DNA of 64,000 bases from Olivibacter sp. SDN3 (GTDB taxonomy: Bacteria; Bacteroidota; Bacteroidia; Sphingobacteriales; Sphingobacteriaceae), in contig NZ_CP060497.1 of NCBI RefSeq assembly GCF_014334135.1, positions 3,720,001 through 3,784,000 of the forward strand. The letters run 5' to 3'. Each line of letters opens with the position of its first letter. The stretch's first letter is position 1. Both the position numbers and the translations under genes were made by a program. A model generated the notes under the pieces. It searched no databases, was not told where the DNA came from, and saw nothing but the letters and a program-made list of their open reading frames with translations. Below, piece after piece: positions 34,078 through 43,316 of this stretch.

Positions 34078-35976
34078 TTACAGTTTACGCTTAGCTTGCT
34101 CCAGCTCTTGCTTAAAAGCTGAGCGGTATTTGTTTACAAAATCTGTTATGCCTAACTTCTGATCGAACAATGGGTGCTCACTTATTTTGAAAGGCTTTAA
34201 AATCTCACAATATCTTTTTGCTTCATGAATTCGTTTGTCGAAATAAAGCATGACGATGGGTACTATCATGGGTTCGGGATCAGTTTCTAAGGCTAATCGA
34301 AAGGCACCGGGCTTGAACTCACCCGGGATATCGTCTTCGGTACGATAAGAGGTTCCCTCCGGACTGATGATGATGTTGTAGCCATCAAGCAAAAAAGCCT
34401 TAGCGGTATCGAAAAAATGATTGCGCGCAGCATCGCGTTTATTGGTGTCCGTACTATCTGACTCTTTGGTGAATACATTGATATAACCTAATTTTTCATA
34501 ATAATCTTGATGGGCAAACTCTCTTGATCGGCCAATCCGTACGGTGCGTATACCGGGATCGCCATATTTAACATCAAGAATCATCGCACTGATGAAATGA
34601 GATTCCAAAGTGATCTGAAAATTGTTGTTGAGGGTGTAATCAGGGTGATTAAGTAAATGGTTGTAAATAAAAATATGACCAGGTTTATCGGGTAGGTGAT
34701 GCCAACCTTCCATTTGATAGTCAAAGAAGGTACAAAGCCTGCGCACAGCAGCTGAACAGGCTTTTCGTGTTTCTGCAGCGTCTGGTTCCCGATTAGTATC
34801 AGTGACTACCTCATACACCTCCTGTAAGTGCCTTAAGAAAAGCATCTCCTGTTTTTCTGCTCGCAGCAAATCAAGACAGATGGATGCTATTCGACGTTCA
34901 CGTGAAGTACCCACTTCTATTAACTGATGTAAAATTTCGAAAGCTAAGTATTTCGTTGTGCGGTGCTTGAGCAAATGCGGTATTTGATGAAGCTCAGAGG
35001 ATGCTTTGATCTGTGTTTGATAGCTCTCAATAAGGTATTGGATGGTGAGCTGATTAGCATTGAAGTGTAAACTTAAAAAACGGATAAACGCAGCGTTAAT
35101 GTGGTTATCTACTAACCAATTTAAGCGGGTATAAAAACGCAGGGCAAAACTATTATCTGACTTCAGGAGCGAGTTAAGGCGCGTATTTTCGATGAAGTAC
35201 GTAGATGTCCTGCGAACGACATATGCCGTACAGATTTCTTTCTCTGCGATCATACAAGGCCAACCGAAAATAAAGCCCTGGTCGGAAATGGGCCACTGAC
35301 TTAATCGTTGCGTGTGTTCAATACGCTCCATCCGGATGTTGCCCTCGATTAAAATATAAAGTCCATCCGAAAAAGTATCCTGTTGAAAAACAACGTCGTC
35401 AGGACGGTATTCCCTGCGGACAGCTTGCTTTGCGATAAGCATCAGTTCTGTATCTTCAAAAAACTCGAAAAAAGGGGATCTCTTTAAAAGCCCCATGATC
35501 GCTTGGGGTTGCTGAGCAACAGAATCGTAATGGTGATCATGATCTTGCGTTTTTATTGCACTATCTGGAGGAAGGATGCTTTGCTGATTTAATACAGCTT
35601 TTTTAAGGAGCAAAAACTGCTTTTTGCAAACATGTATATGGAGGTTTACATCGGTGAGTGTATGAAGAAAAGTGTGGTAGGCGTGCAATTCTACCCGGAA
35701 GAAAGTTGCTCGTTCAGAAGCGACAAGTACATTTTTCGTATGTCTTCCGGGTGGGTTGAGTCCATTCCATCCGATAGGTAGCGCTTGACCGGTAAATTGA
35801 CATACTTCGATTTCAGGATCTCCTTCATTTAGCGCAACATAAAAGCGTACACTGCCTGCTAAGAGCCAATGGATATACTCGACTTTTTTGTGTATGTGAC
35901 ACACAAGTGTGTCTTTTGTTAGTTCGACACACGTTCCGTCTGGGAAATAACGTTTTAAAACTGCTGAATTGATCAA
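34078..35976 (-). CDS. Fusion of cyclic-nucleotide-binding-like domains with a PlsC-type acyltransferase
   Basis: This 632-residue protein has no signal peptide or clear membrane segment. Residues 15-125 and 165-275 each resemble a CNB (CRP-like) beta-roll; the second has RREYRPDDVVFQQDTFSDGLYILIEG. The usual phosphate-binding Glu and Arg-Ala motif is not seen, so cAMP binding is doubtful. Residues 300-415 are helical. Residues 430-600 resemble 1-acylglycerol-3-phosphate acyltransferases: NHLLNHPDY (439-447), ISPEGTSYR (537-545) and FKPGAFRLALE (554-564). The His and Asp are spaced H-x5-D instead of the canonical H-x4-D. A regulated lipid acyltransferase is the best guess. Confidence 0.72.
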   Translation of the reverse strand: MINSAVLKRYFPDGTCVELTKDTLVCHIHKKVEYIHWLLAGSVRFYVALNEGDPEIEVCQFTGQALPIGWNGLNPPGRHTKNVLVASERATFFRVELHAYHTFLHTLTDVNLHIHVCKKQFLLLKKAVLNQQSILPPDSAIKTQDHDHHYDSVAQQPQAIMGLLKRSPFFEFFEDTELMLIAKQAVRREYRPDDVVFQQDTFSDGLYILIEGNIRMERIEHTQRLSQWPISDQGFIFGWPCMIAEKEICTAYVVRRTSTYFIENTRLNSLLKSDNSFALRFYTRLNWLVDNHINAAFIRFLSLHFNANQLTIQYLIESYQTQIKASSELHQIPHLLKHRTTKYLAFEILHQLIEVGTSRERRIASICLDLLRAEKQEMLFLRHLQEVYEVVTDTNREPDAAETRKACSAAVRRLCTFFDYQMEGWHHLPDKPGHIFIYNHLLNHPDYTLNNNFQITLESHFISAMILDVKYGDPGIRTVRIGRSREFAHQDYYEKLGYINVFTKESDSTDTNKRDAARNHFFDTAKAFLLDGYNIIISPEGTSYRTEDDIPGEFKPGAFRLALETDPEPMIVPIVMLYFDKRIHEAKRYCEILKPFKISEHPLFDQKLGITDFVNKYRSAFKQELEQAKRKL

Positions 35977-36369: not shown

Positions 36370-37521
36370 TTAACGAGGTAACGTTTCTGGCCTGTGCATT
36401 TTGTACTGGCTGGCGGTTACCGATTCCAGGAATGCGGCCAGTGCCTGAATTTCTTCTTTGCTGAGATGGAGTTCTTGTAATAGGGGGTCGGTAACCGGAT
36501 GTAAAGGATCTGCTGCCTTTTGTTCATCAGTGGCCGTGTTCATCTGCATTCCACTGTTATATATGTTTAGCACACCGATCATGTTGTCAAAAAGGCCATT
36601 ATGCATCCAAGGGTTGGTTTTCATCACATCACGTAGCGAAGGGGTGCGGAATTTGCCAACGTCTTCGGCCTTTCCGGTTACGTGATAACGACCAAGATCT
36701 TCATATTTACGTTTATAATAGGTGAGGCCGATATTGTGGAATTCTTCGTCTGTCAGGTATTGCCCATAATGGCAGTTCATGCAACGTGCTTTCGTGCGGA
36801 ACAGATGCATGCCATAAAGCTCCTGATCAGATAGCCGTTTGTATTCGCCATTGAGAAAGCGATCAAATCGGCTTTGCCGACTTTTCAGGGTGCGCTGGAA
36901 AGCGGCCAGCGCCTGTGCAATATAGTCGAAAGTGATGCTATCGGTACCATAGGCTTGATGGAAAAGTTTCCGATAGGCAGTTATTTTATGGAGCTTCCGT
37001 GGCAGGGCCTTGACATCCATGGCCATCTCATTATGAGCCTCGATTGGACTTTTGGCCTGTTCTTCCAGTGAACCTGCACGCCCATCCCAGAAGAAACTTT
37101 TCCGTTGATCGACATTCAGCAGTGAAAGGGTATTCCGCCTCCCAGACTGATGATCATGTCCCACAGGCACCGATAAATTGTCTGCCCAAGAGGTTTGCGG
37201 ATCATGACAACTGCTACAGGAAATTTGGTTGGAGCCCGATAAAATAGGGTCAAAAAACAGGTTTTTACCTAAAACAACATCTGCTTGTTCCATCAGACGG
37301 AAGTAGGAGGAGTCAGCAGAAGGTAGTGCACTAAACTCTTTCCAGTAAATACCGGAATCGACCGTAGGTTGGGGCCATGCGGTGATAGGCCGTTCATATA
37401 ACTGACGAAGACTATCCATGGGAACCTGCTTCGGCTGAAGCTCAGGAAAACGGAAAGCATCCAAAAAGATATATCCGACAAGAAGAACGCTGATAAGATA
37501 AAGGGCATACGATCGTCTCAT
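36370..37521 (-). CDS. Di-heme cytochrome c peroxidase (CcpA/MauG superfamily)
   Basis: The protein has 383 residues from the ATG at 37521. An upstream ATG at 37599 would place the promoter and motif inside the gene, and this start gives a proper anchor (YALYLISVLLVGYIFLDAF). Two c-type heme sites are present: C102-x2-C105-H106 (SCSSCHD) and C247-x2-C250-H251 (RCMNCHY). GRRNTLSLLNVDQRKSFFWDGRAGSLEEQA (127-156) is the family hallmark. FRTPSLRDV and MHNG lie near 305-325. The protein is periplasmic or membrane-tethered. It reduces hydrogen peroxide, or as in MauG/MbnH relatives oxidises a partner protein. It is transcribed away from a TonB receptor that shares a promoter motif with it. Confidence 0.9.
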   Translation of the reverse strand: MRRSYALYLISVLLVGYIFLDAFRFPELQPKQVPMDSLRQLYERPITAWPQPTVDSGIYWKEFSALPSADSSYFRLMEQADVVLGKNLFFDPILSGSNQISCSSCHDPQTSWADNLSVPVGHDHQSGRRNTLSLLNVDQRKSFFWDGRAGSLEEQAKSPIEAHNEMAMDVKALPRKLHKITAYRKLFHQAYGTDSITFDYIAQALAAFQRTLKSRQSRFDRFLNGEYKRLSDQELYGMHLFRTKARCMNCHYGQYLTDEEFHNIGLTYYKRKYEDLGRYHVTGKAEDVGKFRTPSLRDVMKTNPWMHNGLFDNMIGVLNIYNSGMQMNTATDEQKAADPLHPVTDPLLQELHLSKEEIQALAAFLESVTASQYKMHRPETLPR

Positions 37522-37542
37522 GGCGGCAAATCTACAGTATTG

Positions 37543-37562
37543 TTTAGAATTATTATAAATAA
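37543..37562 (-). promoter_or_regulatory. 20-bp motif, copy facing the peroxidase gene
   Basis: On the minus strand the sequence is TTATTTATAATAATTCTAAA, ending 21 bases before the peroxidase ATG. It matches the copy facing the TonB receptor gene at 16 of 20 positions, in the same orientation relative to its gene. It has a partly dyadic TTATTT...AAA layout, as Fur-family sites do; the binder is unknown. Confidence 0.5.
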
Positions 37563-37599
37563 TTTGACTTATATGACGGGGTTTCTTACATTTGGCCAT

Positions 37600-37619
37600 T
37601 TATTTGAATCAATTCTAAA
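37600..37619 (+). promoter_or_regulatory. 20-bp motif, copy facing the TonB receptor gene
   Basis: TTATTTGAATCAATTCTAAA lies 6 bases before the TonB receptor ATG. With the next three bases it forms an imperfect dyad (TTATTT at one end, AAATAA at the other). Its partner is at 37543-37562. A site this close to the start codon would block transcription or translation initiation when occupied. Confidence 0.5.
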
Positions 37620-37625
37620 TAACTA

Positions 37626-40394
37626 ATGGGTTTTGTTGGAAAGAGCTTACTGTTTTTGGCTTTTTTTGTGGGATATACAAGAGGTTTCGTCTGGGGGCAA
37701 GAGCAGCTGCAGGGGAGGGTGCTGGATGACCAAGGTAAACCTTTAGCAAATGTTTCGGTTCGTTGGCGAGAGGGATCTTTAAACACCTTTACCGATAACA
37801 GGGGTAGCTTCGTTTTTAAACGAGAACTGTTGGGCCGTGATACCTGTACTTTGGTCTTCTCTTACATAGGCAAGAAAACGGAAGAAAAACGCTTCTTACC
37901 TGCCGGCCAGTCGACAGACCTACCCACTGTGATATTGAGTGACCTGTCGCTGGCCCTGGACCAAATTGAAATCAAGGCGAAGACGGACGGCGGCTCTACC
38001 AATTCTTCGCTCATCATCGATCGGGAAATGTTGGAGCGTTACCCTTCCCTCAGTTTGAATGATCTCTTGAATTTCTTACCGAACCGACGTATTGCAGCAC
38101 CTTCCTTACAGGATATGCAGCAGGCAACCTTAAGGGCGGCTTTTCGGCAGCCAACAGCTGGATCAAGAAATGTACAGGAACTGAACAACGCTTTTGGGGT
38201 ATCGCTGATCGTCGATGATATCGTCATGAGCAACAATGCCAACATGCAAAGTCGCAATGCCGGCATTCGGGGTTTGAATAGCGCAAATTTATCCATACCG
38301 CCTTCGAATTATGGAGATCTTTCGACAACAAGGCACTATAGTGGAGAAAGTACCTTTGGTGGGATTGATCTCCGGCAGATTCCGACGGAAAATATTGAAC
38401 GTATTGAGGTCATCACCGGTGTGCCGTCTGTCCGTTACGGTGATCTGAACAGTGGAGCCATCATCGTAGAGCGCCAGGCAGGCAAAGCGCCTGCTTTTTT
38501 TCGTATGCAGTTGCGCGGCGACGCCACGTCCTATGGCTTTTCCGCTAGTGCGCCATTGCCGGAAAAACTGGGCGACCTTAATTTCGATTTGGGGTATACC
38601 AATTCTTATGCCGATAATCGGGACAAAATCAAACAGTACAATCGTGTTAATGGCTCCCTGATCTGGACACAACGCTGGGGCGGAGGCGAAAAATGGAAAC
38701 ATACTTTTTCGGCAACCTATAGTAAAATTATCGATGGGGTGAAAAAAGATCCGGATGATCCGCAGTCTCCCCGGGTTAAATACGATAATTGGAACCTCAA
38801 TATGAGCAGTCGCTGGTCCTACCAACCCAGCGCTGGCTTTTTTAAGCGGGTAGGACTAAACCTGGGCTATAGTACCAGTCACCAGGAATCGTATCGCGAC
38901 TATTTTTATAATGGGGCTTTTGTGCTGTACACGCAGGCTTTGGAGACGGGTGTTGTGGAAGGGACCTACGGACCCGGCATTTATCGGGCAGAGGATCATA
39001 TCGATGGCCGACCGATGAATATCACGGGACGCCTGGAAACTTATGGCCTATGGCATACGGGTGATGTTCGGCATACCCTGAACCTGGGCATGACGGCCGA
39101 TTATTCGATCAATAGGGGAAGAGGGCGCCTGGCAGATCCTTCGCTTCCGGTGGCCTACCTGGGTGGTAACTTTTCCGACCGCTATTACGATTATAGTTTG
39201 ATTGTGCCGATATGGGATTATGGCTTTTATGCGGAAGATCGCTTTCAGGTATCCATCTCGGGGCGGCCGCTATCGGTAAATGCGGGTGTACGGGGAGATG
39301 TGCAGAACGGCTTTGCCTCTTTTTCACCCCGGACGAACATTAATTACCGCTTGAGTGAATCGCTGCAGTTGGGCCTTGCCTATGGTCTGGCTTTTAAAGC
39401 GCCGGGCCTGGCCCACCGTTATCCGGGGCCGATATTTTCGGAGATCGTTTTACTGAATGCCTATAACGGAAGGGAAGCGGAAAGCACTTCACGTATCTAT
39501 GTCGACCGCTTCGATCCGCCCAGTGAACAACTGAAACCCAGTAGGAGTCAAACCTTGGAATTGACGGCACGTTGGAATAAGCAGGGCCATAATATCGCCC
39601 TCAACCTCTTCCATCGAACCAATAGCCATGGTATTGACTCTTATGAACAGTATGAGTACCCTGCATTACCCAACTACCAAGCTATACCGGTGCCCGGGGA
39701 AAAACCGGAGGTGATTCAGACGGGATTACGCGTCTACGAAATCGAGCGCAAGTTGATGGCGAACTTGTTGCGCTCCCAGGATAATGGCATAGAGCTGCTG
39801 TACAATAGTCCGAAATATGCGCCCTTAGCTACCTCGCTGCATGCCAGCGGCGGGATTTACCGTTCAGCAAGTTCTTCCAATGCGCGTGTAGAGGAGCGGT
39901 TAGGCACTACGGGGACCGATCCAGAGGATGTCATCCGAGGCTATTTCAATCCTGACCGCCAGATCAGCTACAGTAGCAATGCCCGTGTGGGGACTGCCAC
40001 GCACCTGCCGAGATTGAAGCTGGTGTTTGAATTTACGGCCGACTTTCAGTTGATGAACTACAGTAAGTTGCTTTGGGAAAATGCAGTACCAACGGCTTAT
40101 ATAACACGCGACTATACAGAACATGTGGTTGATCCCTTTGATCCGGCTAACCCCATCCATCAAATGCTTTACGACAGAAGGGAGCAGCGCATACGAGCGG
40201 CTAATGAAACGAATTTGTTCGTTGCCAACTTTCATTTCAGTATGGCCAAGGAGATTGGTGAAAGGCTTCGGCTATCCTTCAATGTGTATAATTTTCTGGA
40301 TTATCAGCCCCGTTCTTATTATGAAGTGAGGGATTCTGTACGTATGCCCAACAGTGCTCCGAATTTCGGGGCAATGATCACCTATAAACTATAG
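37626..40394 (+). CDS. TonB-dependent outer-membrane receptor
   Basis: The protein has 922 residues. A signal peptide (to about 23, RGFVWGQ) leads to a carboxypeptidase-regulatory-like domain (LQGRVLDDQGKPLANVSVRW, 28-47). A plug follows (SLSLNDLLNFLPNRRI near 135, IPTENIERIEVITGVPSVRYGDLNSGAIIVE near 252), and the rest is the barrel. The plug has YGDLNSGAIIV, the classical TonB-receptor pattern, not the SusC VVVGYG hallmark. It starts an operon with a DUF4876 lipoprotein and an outer-membrane barrel gene. Together with the divergent di-heme peroxidase it may import a metal complex, heme or similar. No substrate can be read from sequence. Confidence 0.9.
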   Translation: MGFVGKSLLFLAFFVGYTRGFVWGQEQLQGRVLDDQGKPLANVSVRWREGSLNTFTDNRGSFVFKRELLGRDTCTLVFSYIGKKTEEKRFLPAGQSTDLPTVILSDLSLALDQIEIKAKTDGGSTNSSLIIDREMLERYPSLSLNDLLNFLPNRRIAAPSLQDMQQATLRAAFRQPTAGSRNVQELNNAFGVSLIVDDIVMSNNANMQSRNAGIRGLNSANLSIPPSNYGDLSTTRHYSGESTFGGIDLRQIPTENIERIEVITGVPSVRYGDLNSGAIIVERQAGKAPAFFRMQLRGDATSYGFSASAPLPEKLGDLNFDLGYTNSYADNRDKIKQYNRVNGSLIWTQRWGGGEKWKHTFSATYSKIIDGVKKDPDDPQSPRVKYDNWNLNMSSRWSYQPSAGFFKRVGLNLGYSTSHQESYRDYFYNGAFVLYTQALETGVVEGTYGPGIYRAEDHIDGRPMNITGRLETYGLWHTGDVRHTLNLGMTADYSINRGRGRLADPSLPVAYLGGNFSDRYYDYSLIVPIWDYGFYAEDRFQVSISGRPLSVNAGVRGDVQNGFASFSPRTNINYRLSESLQLGLAYGLAFKAPGLAHRYPGPIFSEIVLLNAYNGREAESTSRIYVDRFDPPSEQLKPSRSQTLELTARWNKQGHNIALNLFHRTNSHGIDSYEQYEYPALPNYQAIPVPGEKPEVIQTGLRVYEIERKLMANLLRSQDNGIELLYNSPKYAPLATSLHASGGIYRSASSSNARVEERLGTTGTDPEDVIRGYFNPDRQISYSSNARVGTATHLPRLKLVFEFTADFQLMNYSKLLWENAVPTAYITRDYTEHVVDPFDPANPIHQMLYDRREQRIRAANETNLFVANFHFSMAKEIGERLRLSFNVYNFLDYQPRSYYEVRDSVRMPNSAPNFGAMITYKL

Positions 40395-40421
40395 CTTATG
40401 TTCAACTTAATAAATTACGAT

Positions 40422-41750
40422 ATGAAAAAGTTTTTATTGCTATTATGCACCCTTGCTTTATTTACGGCCTGTAAAAGGGATAATCCCGATGTTGTGCCGG
40501 TCGATTTGAATATTTCATTGAGTCATGCACTCCAAACAGAAGGGGAAGGCACTTTCCCTTGGGAAGAAGTACAGGTCACGCTGATTAATCTTCGTACGCA
40601 TACGGAGACGGTACAGTCGCCAAGTGCTTCGGGCGAACTGGTTTTCGAGGGTATCGCGGCAGGTGAATATGACGTACGTGCTGTCATTACGCTTAGCGAG
40701 GATGCCTATTTTGACCTTACGGGAGTGGAGGTAGGAGCTGATGTCACCTTGAATGCTTCGGCGACGAATCTGTCTGTCCCTGCAGGTTATTCAGAGGTGC
40801 TTGCTATGGAGCTGGTAACCGGCACGGCCGGTCAATTTGTGATCAAGCAGGTCTACTATGCCGGTTCGGATAATCGGGACGGTGCAATGTTCCGTGATCA
40901 ATTCGTGGAGATCCATAATAATACCGGTGAAGTACTTTATGCGGATGGTTTGTATATTGCCCGTGCCTGGGGACGGCAGACCATAAATCGGGAAGATCAG
41001 CACTATCAAGCTAACGGGCAGTTGGATTGGAGCCAATCGGAGGGAATGCCTAATAATATCAACGCGAATGAGGATTATGTGTATTTACGTGATCTCTTCA
41101 AGGTGCCGGGCTCCGGTGCGGACCATCCAGTGCAACCGGGAGAGAGCATCGTGATTGCCCAGAATGCATTGAATCATAAGGTGCCTTTTACCGACAACAA
41201 CGGTAGAGAGATATCGGTGAATGATCCGGATCTGACGGTCGACTTAAGTAGGGCCGATTTCGAAGTGTATTATGGAGATATACCGGGAATCAATCCGCTG
41301 CCCTCTGATATTGACAATCCGGAGGTACCCAATATGGAAGCGATAAAATATGACGGTCGTGATTGGATTTTGGATAATCCGGGAAGAGACAGCTACCTTA
41401 TTTTCTGGGGGAACGAGCAAGCAGATGTGGAAAACTTGCCGGCTTATCCTGCGCCAACCCTCGTGCCGCCTACTAATGAATCCAATAGCTATATCCAGTT
41501 GCCGGTAGCGGCGGTGATGGATGCGGTCGAAGTGCAACCTAATCTTGCTGATGATCGGATTCCAAAGAAACTGCATCCGGAACAGGATGCCGGTTTTACT
41601 TTTGTGACCGAGGGCTCTTACTCTTCGCAGTCGGTAATCCGAAGGACACAGTTGAACGAAGGTGGCAGGCGTATTTTACAGGATACCAATAACTCCTCGG
41701 AAGATTTTGTGGTGATCAAGGCCAATCCGGGAGCTTTTGCGGACGAATAA
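40422..41750 (+). CDS. DUF4876-type surface lipoprotein
   Basis: The protein has 442 residues. I choose the ATG at 40422, because MKKFLLLLCTLALFTACKRD is a clean type II signal (lipobox FTAC); an ATG eight codons upstream is unlikely. Residues 30-130 form an Ig-like, carboxypeptidase-regulatory-type domain (SGELVFEGIAAGEYDVRAV). The remainder matches my recollection of DUF4876: FVIKQVYYAGSDNRDGAMFRDQFVEIHNNTGEVLYADGLYIARAWG (about 137-180), ending SQSVIRRTQLNEGGRR. It contains several tryptophans. It starts 27 bases after the receptor stop and 9 bases before the next gene. I infer a receptor-associated surface protein. Its function is unknown. Confidence 0.82.
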   Translation: MKKFLLLLCTLALFTACKRDNPDVVPVDLNISLSHALQTEGEGTFPWEEVQVTLINLRTHTETVQSPSASGELVFEGIAAGEYDVRAVITLSEDAYFDLTGVEVGADVTLNASATNLSVPAGYSEVLAMELVTGTAGQFVIKQVYYAGSDNRDGAMFRDQFVEIHNNTGEVLYADGLYIARAWGRQTINREDQHYQANGQLDWSQSEGMPNNINANEDYVYLRDLFKVPGSGADHPVQPGESIVIAQNALNHKVPFTDNNGREISVNDPDLTVDLSRADFEVYYGDIPGINPLPSDIDNPEVPNMEAIKYDGRDWILDNPGRDSYLIFWGNEQADVENLPAYPAPTLVPPTNESNSYIQLPVAAVMDAVEVQPNLADDRIPKKLHPEQDAGFTFVTEGSYSSQSVIRRTQLNEGGRRILQDTNNSSEDFVVIKANPGAFADE

Positions 41751-41759
41751 GATTGACAT

Positions 41760-43316
41760 ATGTGGCGAATGAAAGTGTTGTTGATCGCTATGGTTTTAGG
41801 CAGTGTTTGGCGGTTCACGGCTCAACTACATGCATCGGTTAAACAGGATAGTCTTTCGAGGCTATCCTATGCCATTGATACGGTATATGGTATGGAACGA
41901 AGCTATATACGGCAATATCCGATTTGGACAGCTGATTGGAAGAACAATTTCAATCGTCTGGAGGCCGGTGCGGCAGTAGAAAAGGGAGAATGGATCCGGG
42001 CACAGGGCAGCACAAAAACACAAACCTATCGCTTGGACACAGAAGGAAAAACCACATGGAAAGGCGTGCACCTGTATGGACGCTTCTCTTACATGCATGC
42101 TTTTGAAGACAGCACCCGTCTCCGTCACCAAACACGTATCAATGAAAGCGCTCCAGTATATTTTGGTTCGCTGCGTTATAACCGTTACGAGCGGTCAGTA
42201 TACCAACTGAAAGCCGTTTTACAGAAGGATCTGAAAAAAAATAACTTACCATTAACCCTGGGTATCGATTACCGGGTTGGAGAGCACTTCTCGAATAATG
42301 ATCCGCGTGGTGCTATAAATGATTTTCAGCTGAACCTTTTGGCTGGTCTGGGTTTTCGGCGAGGAGCCTGGGAATACCATATAGATAGTAAGTATGGCTA
42401 CGGTCGTGAACGCGTGCAGGTTTCGTATAAGAACGAAAAATATACGGAGAACACGGCTGATTCGCTATACGTCAATTGGTTGATGAACGGCTATGGCAAT
42501 GCTTATGAAAAGCTGTCGGAAATTCACTACAATGACGATATGCGTCGCTTTGGAGCAGGTTTTCACCTGAGATATCAACCTACTCCCGGTTCTACCTGGA
42601 AGGCAGATCTGGAATGGCTACGGGAGCAGCAGGACTTCAAGCAGTATACCCAATCATCCAACTTATTTAATTTGCTGAACACTTACCTAAAGGATCAATG
42701 GAGAGCCTCGTTGTTTTGGCATCGACAATGGGCATCTAACAGGCACTTTATATGGCTATTTGCGGCCGATGCGGTAGAGGGATGGGATGAGCATCCGGAA
42801 TTTGCAGTAAATAACTATGTTTATCGGCGAACGGTCTACGCAACCGAATTGAACATGCGTTACGAACAGTGGCTGTATAGTGCAGGTGTTAAGCATGTGC
42901 ATACCGAAAGGCATGACGGGAATACAGGCGTAGGTAATCAGTTCGCTCAGATAGATGCCCAACTGGGATTCGGAAGGAGCCTATATGGAATAGGTAAGGG
43001 ACAGTTGCAGCTGCTTGGTAGTTTGGATTATCGCTTGCCGCTAGATGCCTCTCTACAGTTCAATGCCCTTAACGAAACGGTTTTTACCAGACATATTCTC
43101 TATTACGACTACTATTATAGTCAGGTCGCATCGTGGAAAGTTGGGCTTAACGCAACATATTTTTTTACAACAGAAAATGGTCAATTTACCTGGTCGGTCG
43201 GCCTATCGGCGGATTATGCCCAGCGGAGAGCATTTGAAGAGGATACCGGCCATCCGTTTATGCTTCCCGGAAAAGATCGTTGGAGCAGCATGCTACAAAT
43301 ACGGTTGTTTTTTTAG
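41760..43316 (+). CDS. Outer-membrane beta-barrel protein of the DUF6850 type
   Basis: The protein has 518 residues. The signal peptide (LLIAMVLGSVWRFTAQLHA) runs to about residue 22. The rest alternates polar and aromatic residues in amphipathic strands (for example YELNMRYEQWLYSAGVKHVH and GKGQLQLLGSLDYRLPL). The chain ends MLQIRLFF, a terminal aromatic as the barrel-assembly machinery requires. The family name is from memory of proteins found beside DUF4876 genes. It is the last gene of the receptor/DUF4876 operon (9-base gap), so it probably forms a second pore or a receptor partner. Confidence 0.72.
   Translation: MWRMKVLLIAMVLGSVWRFTAQLHASVKQDSLSRLSYAIDTVYGMERSYIRQYPIWTADWKNNFNRLEAGAAVEKGEWIRAQGSTKTQTYRLDTEGKTTWKGVHLYGRFSYMHAFEDSTRLRHQTRINESAPVYFGSLRYNRYERSVYQLKAVLQKDLKKNNLPLTLGIDYRVGEHFSNNDPRGAINDFQLNLLAGLGFRRGAWEYHIDSKYGYGRERVQVSYKNEKYTENTADSLYVNWLMNGYGNAYEKLSEIHYNDDMRRFGAGFHLRYQPTPGSTWKADLEWLREQQDFKQYTQSSNLFNLLNTYLKDQWRASLFWHRQWASNRHFIWLFAADAVEGWDEHPEFAVNNYVYRRTVYATELNMRYEQWLYSAGVKHVHTERHDGNTGVGNQFAQIDAQLGFGRSLYGIGKGQLQLLGSLDYRLPLDASLQFNALNETVFTRHILYYDYYYSQVASWKVGLNATYFFTTENGQFTWSVGLSADYAQRRAFEEDTGHPFMLPGKDRWSSMLQIRLFF

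Follow-up and report, generated by a model that had tools for sequence, protein, structure and literature searches.

Loci that pair a TonB receptor with a DUF4876 protein (TonB/DUF4876 loci) are among the most iron-responsive both in P. gingivalis, at 20.8- to 214.5-fold under iron depletion, and in B. thetaiotaomicron, at 36.7- to 128-fold (PMC10434189). They are also strongly hemin-dependent (PMC10470040). This receptor/DUF4876 core has been published as iron-regulated, without an assigned function or mention of a di-heme enzyme (PMC10434189, PMC10470040). An earlier note on the locus described here, made from its sequence alone, knew of no described function for its set of gene families together; that holds for the function and for the di-heme enzyme, but the strong iron regulation of the core was already in print. 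When we searched the literature for MauG-like enzymes associated with TonB in Bacteroidetes, nothing relevant emerged, and we found the combination of this importer with a two-heme enzyme described nowhere.

The window, meaning the whole stretch of 64,000 nucleotides from Olivibacter sp. SDN3 that we analysed, contains a gene for a di-heme enzyme back to back with a three-gene operon for a TonB receptor, a DUF4876 lipoprotein and a DUF6850 barrel. The earlier note had reported this arrangement, and we verified its coordinates: gaps of 27 bases (receptor to lipoprotein) and 9 bases (lipoprotein to barrel) separate the operon genes, and the divergent promoter region between enzyme and receptor is 104 bp long. 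Along the window, the features are:

36370..37521, minus strand: MauG-superfamily di-heme enzyme, 383 aa, with an N-terminal signal/anchor and two CXXCH motifs (CCP_MauG, E 6.7e-54)
36559..36561, minus strand: codon of enzyme Tyr321, by alignment the equivalent of the MauG axial ligand Tyr294
36769..36783, minus strand: second heme-c motif, CMNCH, residues 247-251
37204..37218, minus strand: first heme-c motif, CSSCH, residues 102-106
37540..37562, no strand assigned: predicted Fur box TTGTTTAGAATTATTATAAATAA, 22.7 bits, 18 bp 5' of the enzyme start
37563..37594, plus strand: Bacteroidota-type promoter as read from the sequence, TTTG at 37563-37566 and TACATTTG at 37587-37594, spacing 20
37600..37622, no strand assigned: predicted Fur box TTATTTGAATCAATTCTAAATAA, 19.5 bits, 3 bp 5' of the receptor start
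37626..40394, plus strand: TonB-dependent receptor of non-SusC type, 922 aa (carboxypeptidase-like domain, Plug, barrel)
40422..41750, plus strand: DUF4876 lipoprotein, 442 aa, with lipidated Cys17 followed by KRD (DUF4876, E 2e-32; solved relative 4Q1Z, BT_1938, Z 29.5)
41760..43316, plus strand: DUF6850 outer-membrane beta-barrel, about 18 strands, aromatic C-terminus (DUF6850, E 1.1e-65)

The Bacteroidota-type promoter thus sits between the two predicted Fur boxes. The enzyme's reading frame is open as far as 37599, beyond the start given here, and that of the lipoprotein is open from 40398. Elsewhere in the window, positions 34078-35976 encode a large protein with cyclic-nucleotide-binding and acyltransferase domains, which, among four further genomes from the genus, occurs in only one.

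The four protein families

The enzyme has two heme-c motifs and, at the position of MauG Tyr294, a tyrosine (Tyr321) that is invariant in 18 aligned relatives. In the alignment this Tyr stands where classical cytochrome c peroxidases have Met as the distal ligand of the high-potential heme, so the protein is of the MauG type within the CcpA/MauG-type family to which the earlier note had assigned it, and it may work like MauG, perhaps through bis-Fe(IV) chemistry. The nearest NCBIfam models are MauG, MbnH and SAM_quin_mod (about 170-220 bits each), and it falls below the cut-off of every one: it scores 218 bits against the MbnH family TIGR04039 (curated cut-off 362.85) and 201 bits against MauG TIGR03791 (443.85). 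Its relatives score 208-231 bits against TIGR04039 and, like the window enzyme, stay below the cut-offs. The enzyme belongs instead to a distinct subfamily, whose profile, run over 121 Sphingobacteriaceae genomes, retrieved 32 proteins at 461-663 bits; a single further protein scored 313 bits, and all the rest scored 264 bits or less.

The receptor carries the Plug and barrel domains PF07715 and PF00593 of TonB receptors. We rejected a SusC/RagA identity (TIGR04056, 37 bits against a cut-off of 368.25), in agreement with the earlier note, and there is no SusD partner among the four genes. The lipoprotein scores 113 bits against DUF4876 (Pfam gathering score 27.9). Its predicted model (pLDDT 91.6) matches 4Q1Z, B. 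thetaiotaomicron BT_1938, with Z 29.5 over 265 residues, and comprises a transthyretin/CnaB-like domain and a lamin-tail-like domain, the latter a weak match (Z 8.0). Its relatives mostly have SSD, SKDD or KKD after the lipidated Cys, which resembles the surface-export signals of Bacteroidota, and the lipoprotein is probably located at the surface. What the earlier note had called an aromatic-ended barrel is indeed an outer-membrane barrel and can now be named DUF6850 (223 bits; Pfam gathering score 27). Its predicted model (pLDDT 87.5) has about 18 long strands. We rejected its identification as a known transporter, because the fold matches generic porin-like barrels (the best is CymA, Z 19.6, at 8-9% identity), from which no function can be deduced.

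Conservation of the four-gene unit

Among the 121 Sphingobacteriaceae genomes, 32 DUF4876 genes occur in 26 genomes, and the same 26 genomes contain 32 DUF6850 genes scoring above the cut-off. By coordinates the two are adjacent in all 32 cases, and a receptor gene precedes the pair in every case when the surrounding DNA is read. Of the 32 subfamily enzymes, 21 lie beside a DUF4876-DUF6850 pair, either as the final gene of the operon or divergently, and 11 are located elsewhere; the chance expectation for one enzyme per genome to fall within about 10 kb of a pair is below 1%. With the enzyme as the only query, named genomes yielded 79 loci, 71 of them with adjacent receptor, DUF4876 and DUF6850 genes. 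That search was blind to neighbors, but its query was built from DUF4876-adjacent enzymes, so 21 of 32 is the less biased figure. The 79 loci span Sphingobacteriaceae, Flavobacteriales and Chitinophagaceae, and cassettes were found in Sphingobacterium, Pedobacter, Parapedobacter, Chryseobacterium, Flavobacterium, Myroides, Empedobacter, Apibacter, Tenacibaculum, Chitinophaga, Niabella and Mucilaginibacter.

Across the phylum, DUF4876 is present in 37 of 395 genomes. DUF6850 accompanies it in 32 of the 34 DUF4876 genomes outside the window's family, and seven of the nine subfamily enzymes in those genomes adjoin DUF6850. None of these seven is in a genome with short, split DUF4876 matches, a group that we take to be Bacteroidales, and every cassette found in these presumed Bacteroidales is without the enzyme. 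The surroundings of the cassettes differ among loci and flanking genes recur only within close relatives, which makes the set of four genes the conserved unit. The earlier note had seen the four families together in one genome; their co-occurrence is clearly conserved. For the same reason we discarded the neighbors beyond the four genes as a clue to the substrate, synteny holding at the species level only, apart from one cassette (L036) that adjoins a heme oxygenase, a siderophore-interacting protein and a siderophore-type ABC transporter.

Several side observations concern variants of the cassette. Enzyme-less cassettes (L053:3571-6480, L054, L059, L048, L047:10555-12774 and L050:12890-15112) often have a HEAT-repeat protein of about 740 aa and a protein of about 206 aa that belongs to no Pfam family in place of the enzyme, possibly as an alternative processing module. 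Some lie near genes for a no-family lipoprotein of about 285 aa and an amino-acid permease (L047:12785-14849, L049:1233-3258, L055:10612-12698, L059:15569-17001), which might hint at a peptide-like cargo. Solitary subfamily enzymes in L142:9285-10424 and L143:8922-10061 stand between genes for a MATE-like transporter and a DNA polymerase IV-like protein. Complete cassettes of L033 and L040 have the same flanks, which would fit a loss of the trio that spared the enzyme. In Myroides (L100, L108, L109), two different complete cassettes occur in tandem, with enzymes about 70% and DUF4876 proteins about 35% identical, which suggests that they serve different cargos.

Predicted Fur boxes and the metal

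A box model, built by iteration over 72 cassette promoters with a palindrome as the seed, gave TTATTTAGAATNATTCTAAATAA. Sites of at least 14 bits are present in 62 of the 72 promoters, in none of the 720 shuffled sequences and in 1.7% of randomly drawn segments, although this enrichment on its own is partly circular because the model was trained on the same promoters. In the 64-kb window only two sites reach 8 bits, the predicted boxes at 37540-37562 and 37600-37622, both between the enzyme and receptor genes. The window's own genome has 21 sites with at most three mismatches to the consensus (0 for the reversed control), and those that we read precede FeoA-FeoB, a siderophore-interacting protein, many TonB-receptor-like genes and an ABC ATPase. 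Riemerella promoters containing ATTTAGAATTATCCTAAAT and ATTTAAAATTATTCTAAAT are bound by Fur in EMSA (PMC5609570), and the window boxes are of the same sequence type. From the boxes, their neighbors genome-wide, the Riemerella match and the published iron transcriptomes of relatives, the metal of the cassette is very probably iron, through Fur. The earlier note's link to metal uptake therefore stands, and the metal that it had left open is narrowed to iron.

Eight of nine truly divergent cassettes, including that of the window, have two boxes, one per direction (a tenth apparently divergent case, L050, is a truncated second cassette and was left out). One box is present in 54 of 81 colinear cassettes. 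Of nine divergent-type loci with a box, eight have the motif TAnnTTTG directly 5' of the proximal one, and the solitary enzymes of L140 and L091 each retain a box directly upstream. The paired boxes of the divergent loci and the boxes of these solitary enzymes indicate that the enzyme is part of the regulon. We are highly confident that the four genes belong together as a genuine unit under iron regulation. Iron acquisition is thereby the probable function of DUF4876 and DUF6850, two hitherto uncharacterised families that are paired almost without exception across Bacteroidota. Both are also connected with genes that iron starvation strongly induces in gut and oral bacteria and whose role had not been assigned.

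The di-heme enzyme and known systems

The three outer-membrane proteins evolve together (pairwise distances correlate at r 0.92-0.95), and the enzyme follows them much less closely (0.62-0.65). In the receptor tree the window groups with L031, L033, L034 and L037 (support 1.0), and in the enzyme tree with L031, L044 and L052 (support 0.95). The enzyme tree conflicts with both the receptor and lipoprotein trees with good support, so the enzyme has been exchanged between cassette lineages. Relatives of the enzyme also occur in SusC-SusD-lipoprotein operons (L144-L150) and beside an unrelated TonB receptor (L119, L126), pointing to a MauG-like subfamily repeatedly attached to iron importers. In a column-by-column comparison of enzyme-positive with enzyme-negative cassettes, no Trp reaches 70% conservation in the enzyme-linked partners; the best columns are 59% in DUF4876, 69% in DUF6850 and 65% in the receptor. 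The Trp columns, distances and trees all speak against a fixed protein substrate. Because the enzyme is swapped among cassettes and is present in unlike importers, a common task on imported iron complexes fits best.

Two types of these importers merit description. In L144-L150 the enzyme is terminal in SusC-SusD-213-aa lipoprotein operons with FecR-like genes, and no Fur box was found at the SusC or enzyme gene of these operons. In L065 and L066 it is terminal in SusCD/zinc metallohydrolase/DUF4302/clostripain operons, with TIGR04549, that adjoin an ECF sigma gene bearing a Fur box.

Narrowly, on balance, we read the locus as a Fur-repressed iron-acquisition cassette with an exchangeable di-heme enzyme that acts on the imported ferric complex. 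Iron starvation would switch on both divergent promoters, each with its Fur box; the DUF4876 lipoprotein would capture or lid the iron complex at the surface, the TonB receptor would pump it inward to the periplasm, with the DUF6850 barrel as a possible auxiliary channel or assembly partner. The periplasmic MauG-type enzyme would then use oxidising equivalents from peroxide to act on the ferric complex, whether siderophore or heme, making its iron available. The enzyme is most likely a periplasmic accessory that processes the imported complex, an alternative that the earlier note had also raised and that we favor. A two-heme enzyme uses up iron just when the cell is starved of it, so the economical reading would be that it helps to obtain iron. 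The enzyme is not essential to import, because many cassettes work without it. Oxidation as the specific form of processing has at best about an even chance. The hemes of MauG are buried, which is easier to reconcile with a bound protein being oxidised than with a free small molecule, and this counts against action on the cargo. The 11 subfamily enzymes located away from the pair and the box-less operons of L144-L150 also weigh against the reading. The usual routes of iron release are reduction, ester hydrolysis and heme oxygenase. More tentative is the proposal that the enzyme is a dedicated iron-releasing oxidase, Fur-induced and peroxide-driven, which oxidises the ligand of the imported ferric complex in the periplasm and serves as a plug-in common to several unrelated Bacteroidota iron importers.

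The enzyme could instead be a periplasmic H2O2 reductase, co-induced to limit Fenton damage during iron import. Classical peroxidases are among the solved structures nearest to it by whole-length score, and both its loose evolutionary coupling to the trio and the lack of enzyme-positive cassettes among the presumed Bacteroidales genomes would suit such a role. However, the MauG-type Tyr replaces the Met of classical peroxidases, derepression through Fur at low iron is the opposite of peak Fenton risk, and the enzyme is linked to particular importers, not to catalase or AhpC genes. We therefore consider peroxide defence unlikely.

More doubtful still is maturation of the MbnH/MauG kind, in which the enzyme would oxidise Trp or Tyr residues of DUF4876 (or of the barrel or receptor) before export and so build a metal-binding site. 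In its favor are the Tyr at the Tyr294 position and the pairing, known from MbnP/MbnT, of a surface-type lipoprotein with a TonB receptor. Tyr83, Tyr173 and His252 of DUF4876 are near-invariant as well, but these Tyr and His residues are just as conserved in cassettes without the enzyme. Nor do enzyme and lipoprotein travel together: the close enzyme of L044 (71% identity to that of the window) serves a DUF4876 protein only 24% identical, and the nearer lipoprotein of L034 (about 45%) has a remote enzyme (51%). With no conserved Trp in the partners and discordant trees, the earlier note's suggestion that a Trp of DUF4876 is the substrate is not borne out, and the enzyme may at most oxidise a Tyr or lineage-specific Trp residues.

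Import of another metal or cofactor, such as copper or cobalamin, merely under Fur control is very improbable: the receptor resembles siderophore, B12 and heme receptor models only weakly and MbnT/P/H is a copper system, but iron and hemin are the signals in published transcriptomes (PMC10434189, PMC10470040), the L036 cassette has heme and siderophore genes beside it, the receptor is below the TIGR01779 (B12) cut-off, and we rejected the copper reading on family scores below cut-off and on regulation that indicates iron.

Several described systems come close to the cassette. PG1019-PG1022 of P. gingivalis and BT3631-BT3633 and BT1938-BT1939 of B. thetaiotaomicron combine DUF4876 with a TonB receptor, like the window trio, and are strongly induced by iron depletion, but their publication assigns no function and mentions no di-heme enzyme (PMC10434189). 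The solved DUF4876 relative, 4Q1Z, is BT_1938 of the BT1938-BT1939 locus, and BT1933-39, a DUF4876 locus, lists a HEAT-repeat protein. The methanobactin copper uptake system MbnH/MbnP/MbnT likewise combines a MauG-superfamily enzyme with axial Tyr, a TonB transporter and an envelope protein; the window enzyme is under the MbnH cut-off, its setting is iron rather than copper, no conserved Trp is present, and family-model searches found no MbnP-type match for DUF4876. MauG, which matures tryptophan tryptophylquinone, and BthA (6e1c) share two hemes c, the Tyr294 equivalent and, judging by sequence, a similar fold, but the window enzyme scores 201 against the MauG cut-off of 444 and is found with iron import, not with methylamine dehydrogenase.

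The iron capture system (ICS) of Capnocytophaga and Riemerella is also an iron-induced outer-membrane capture system (PMC5429918). It has SusC and SusD, and the window cassette has neither; the ICS-like SusCD/TIGR04549 operons of L065 and L066, which resemble the Riemerella iron-induced capture cluster (PMC5429918), carry the window's enzyme subfamily. The HmuRY and RhuRA-RhuH heme systems of Bacteroidota have a Fur-controlled TonB receptor with accessory proteins and the same type of Fur box (PMC5609570, PMC11967795), and differ in that the window cassette has no HmuY-like hemophore.
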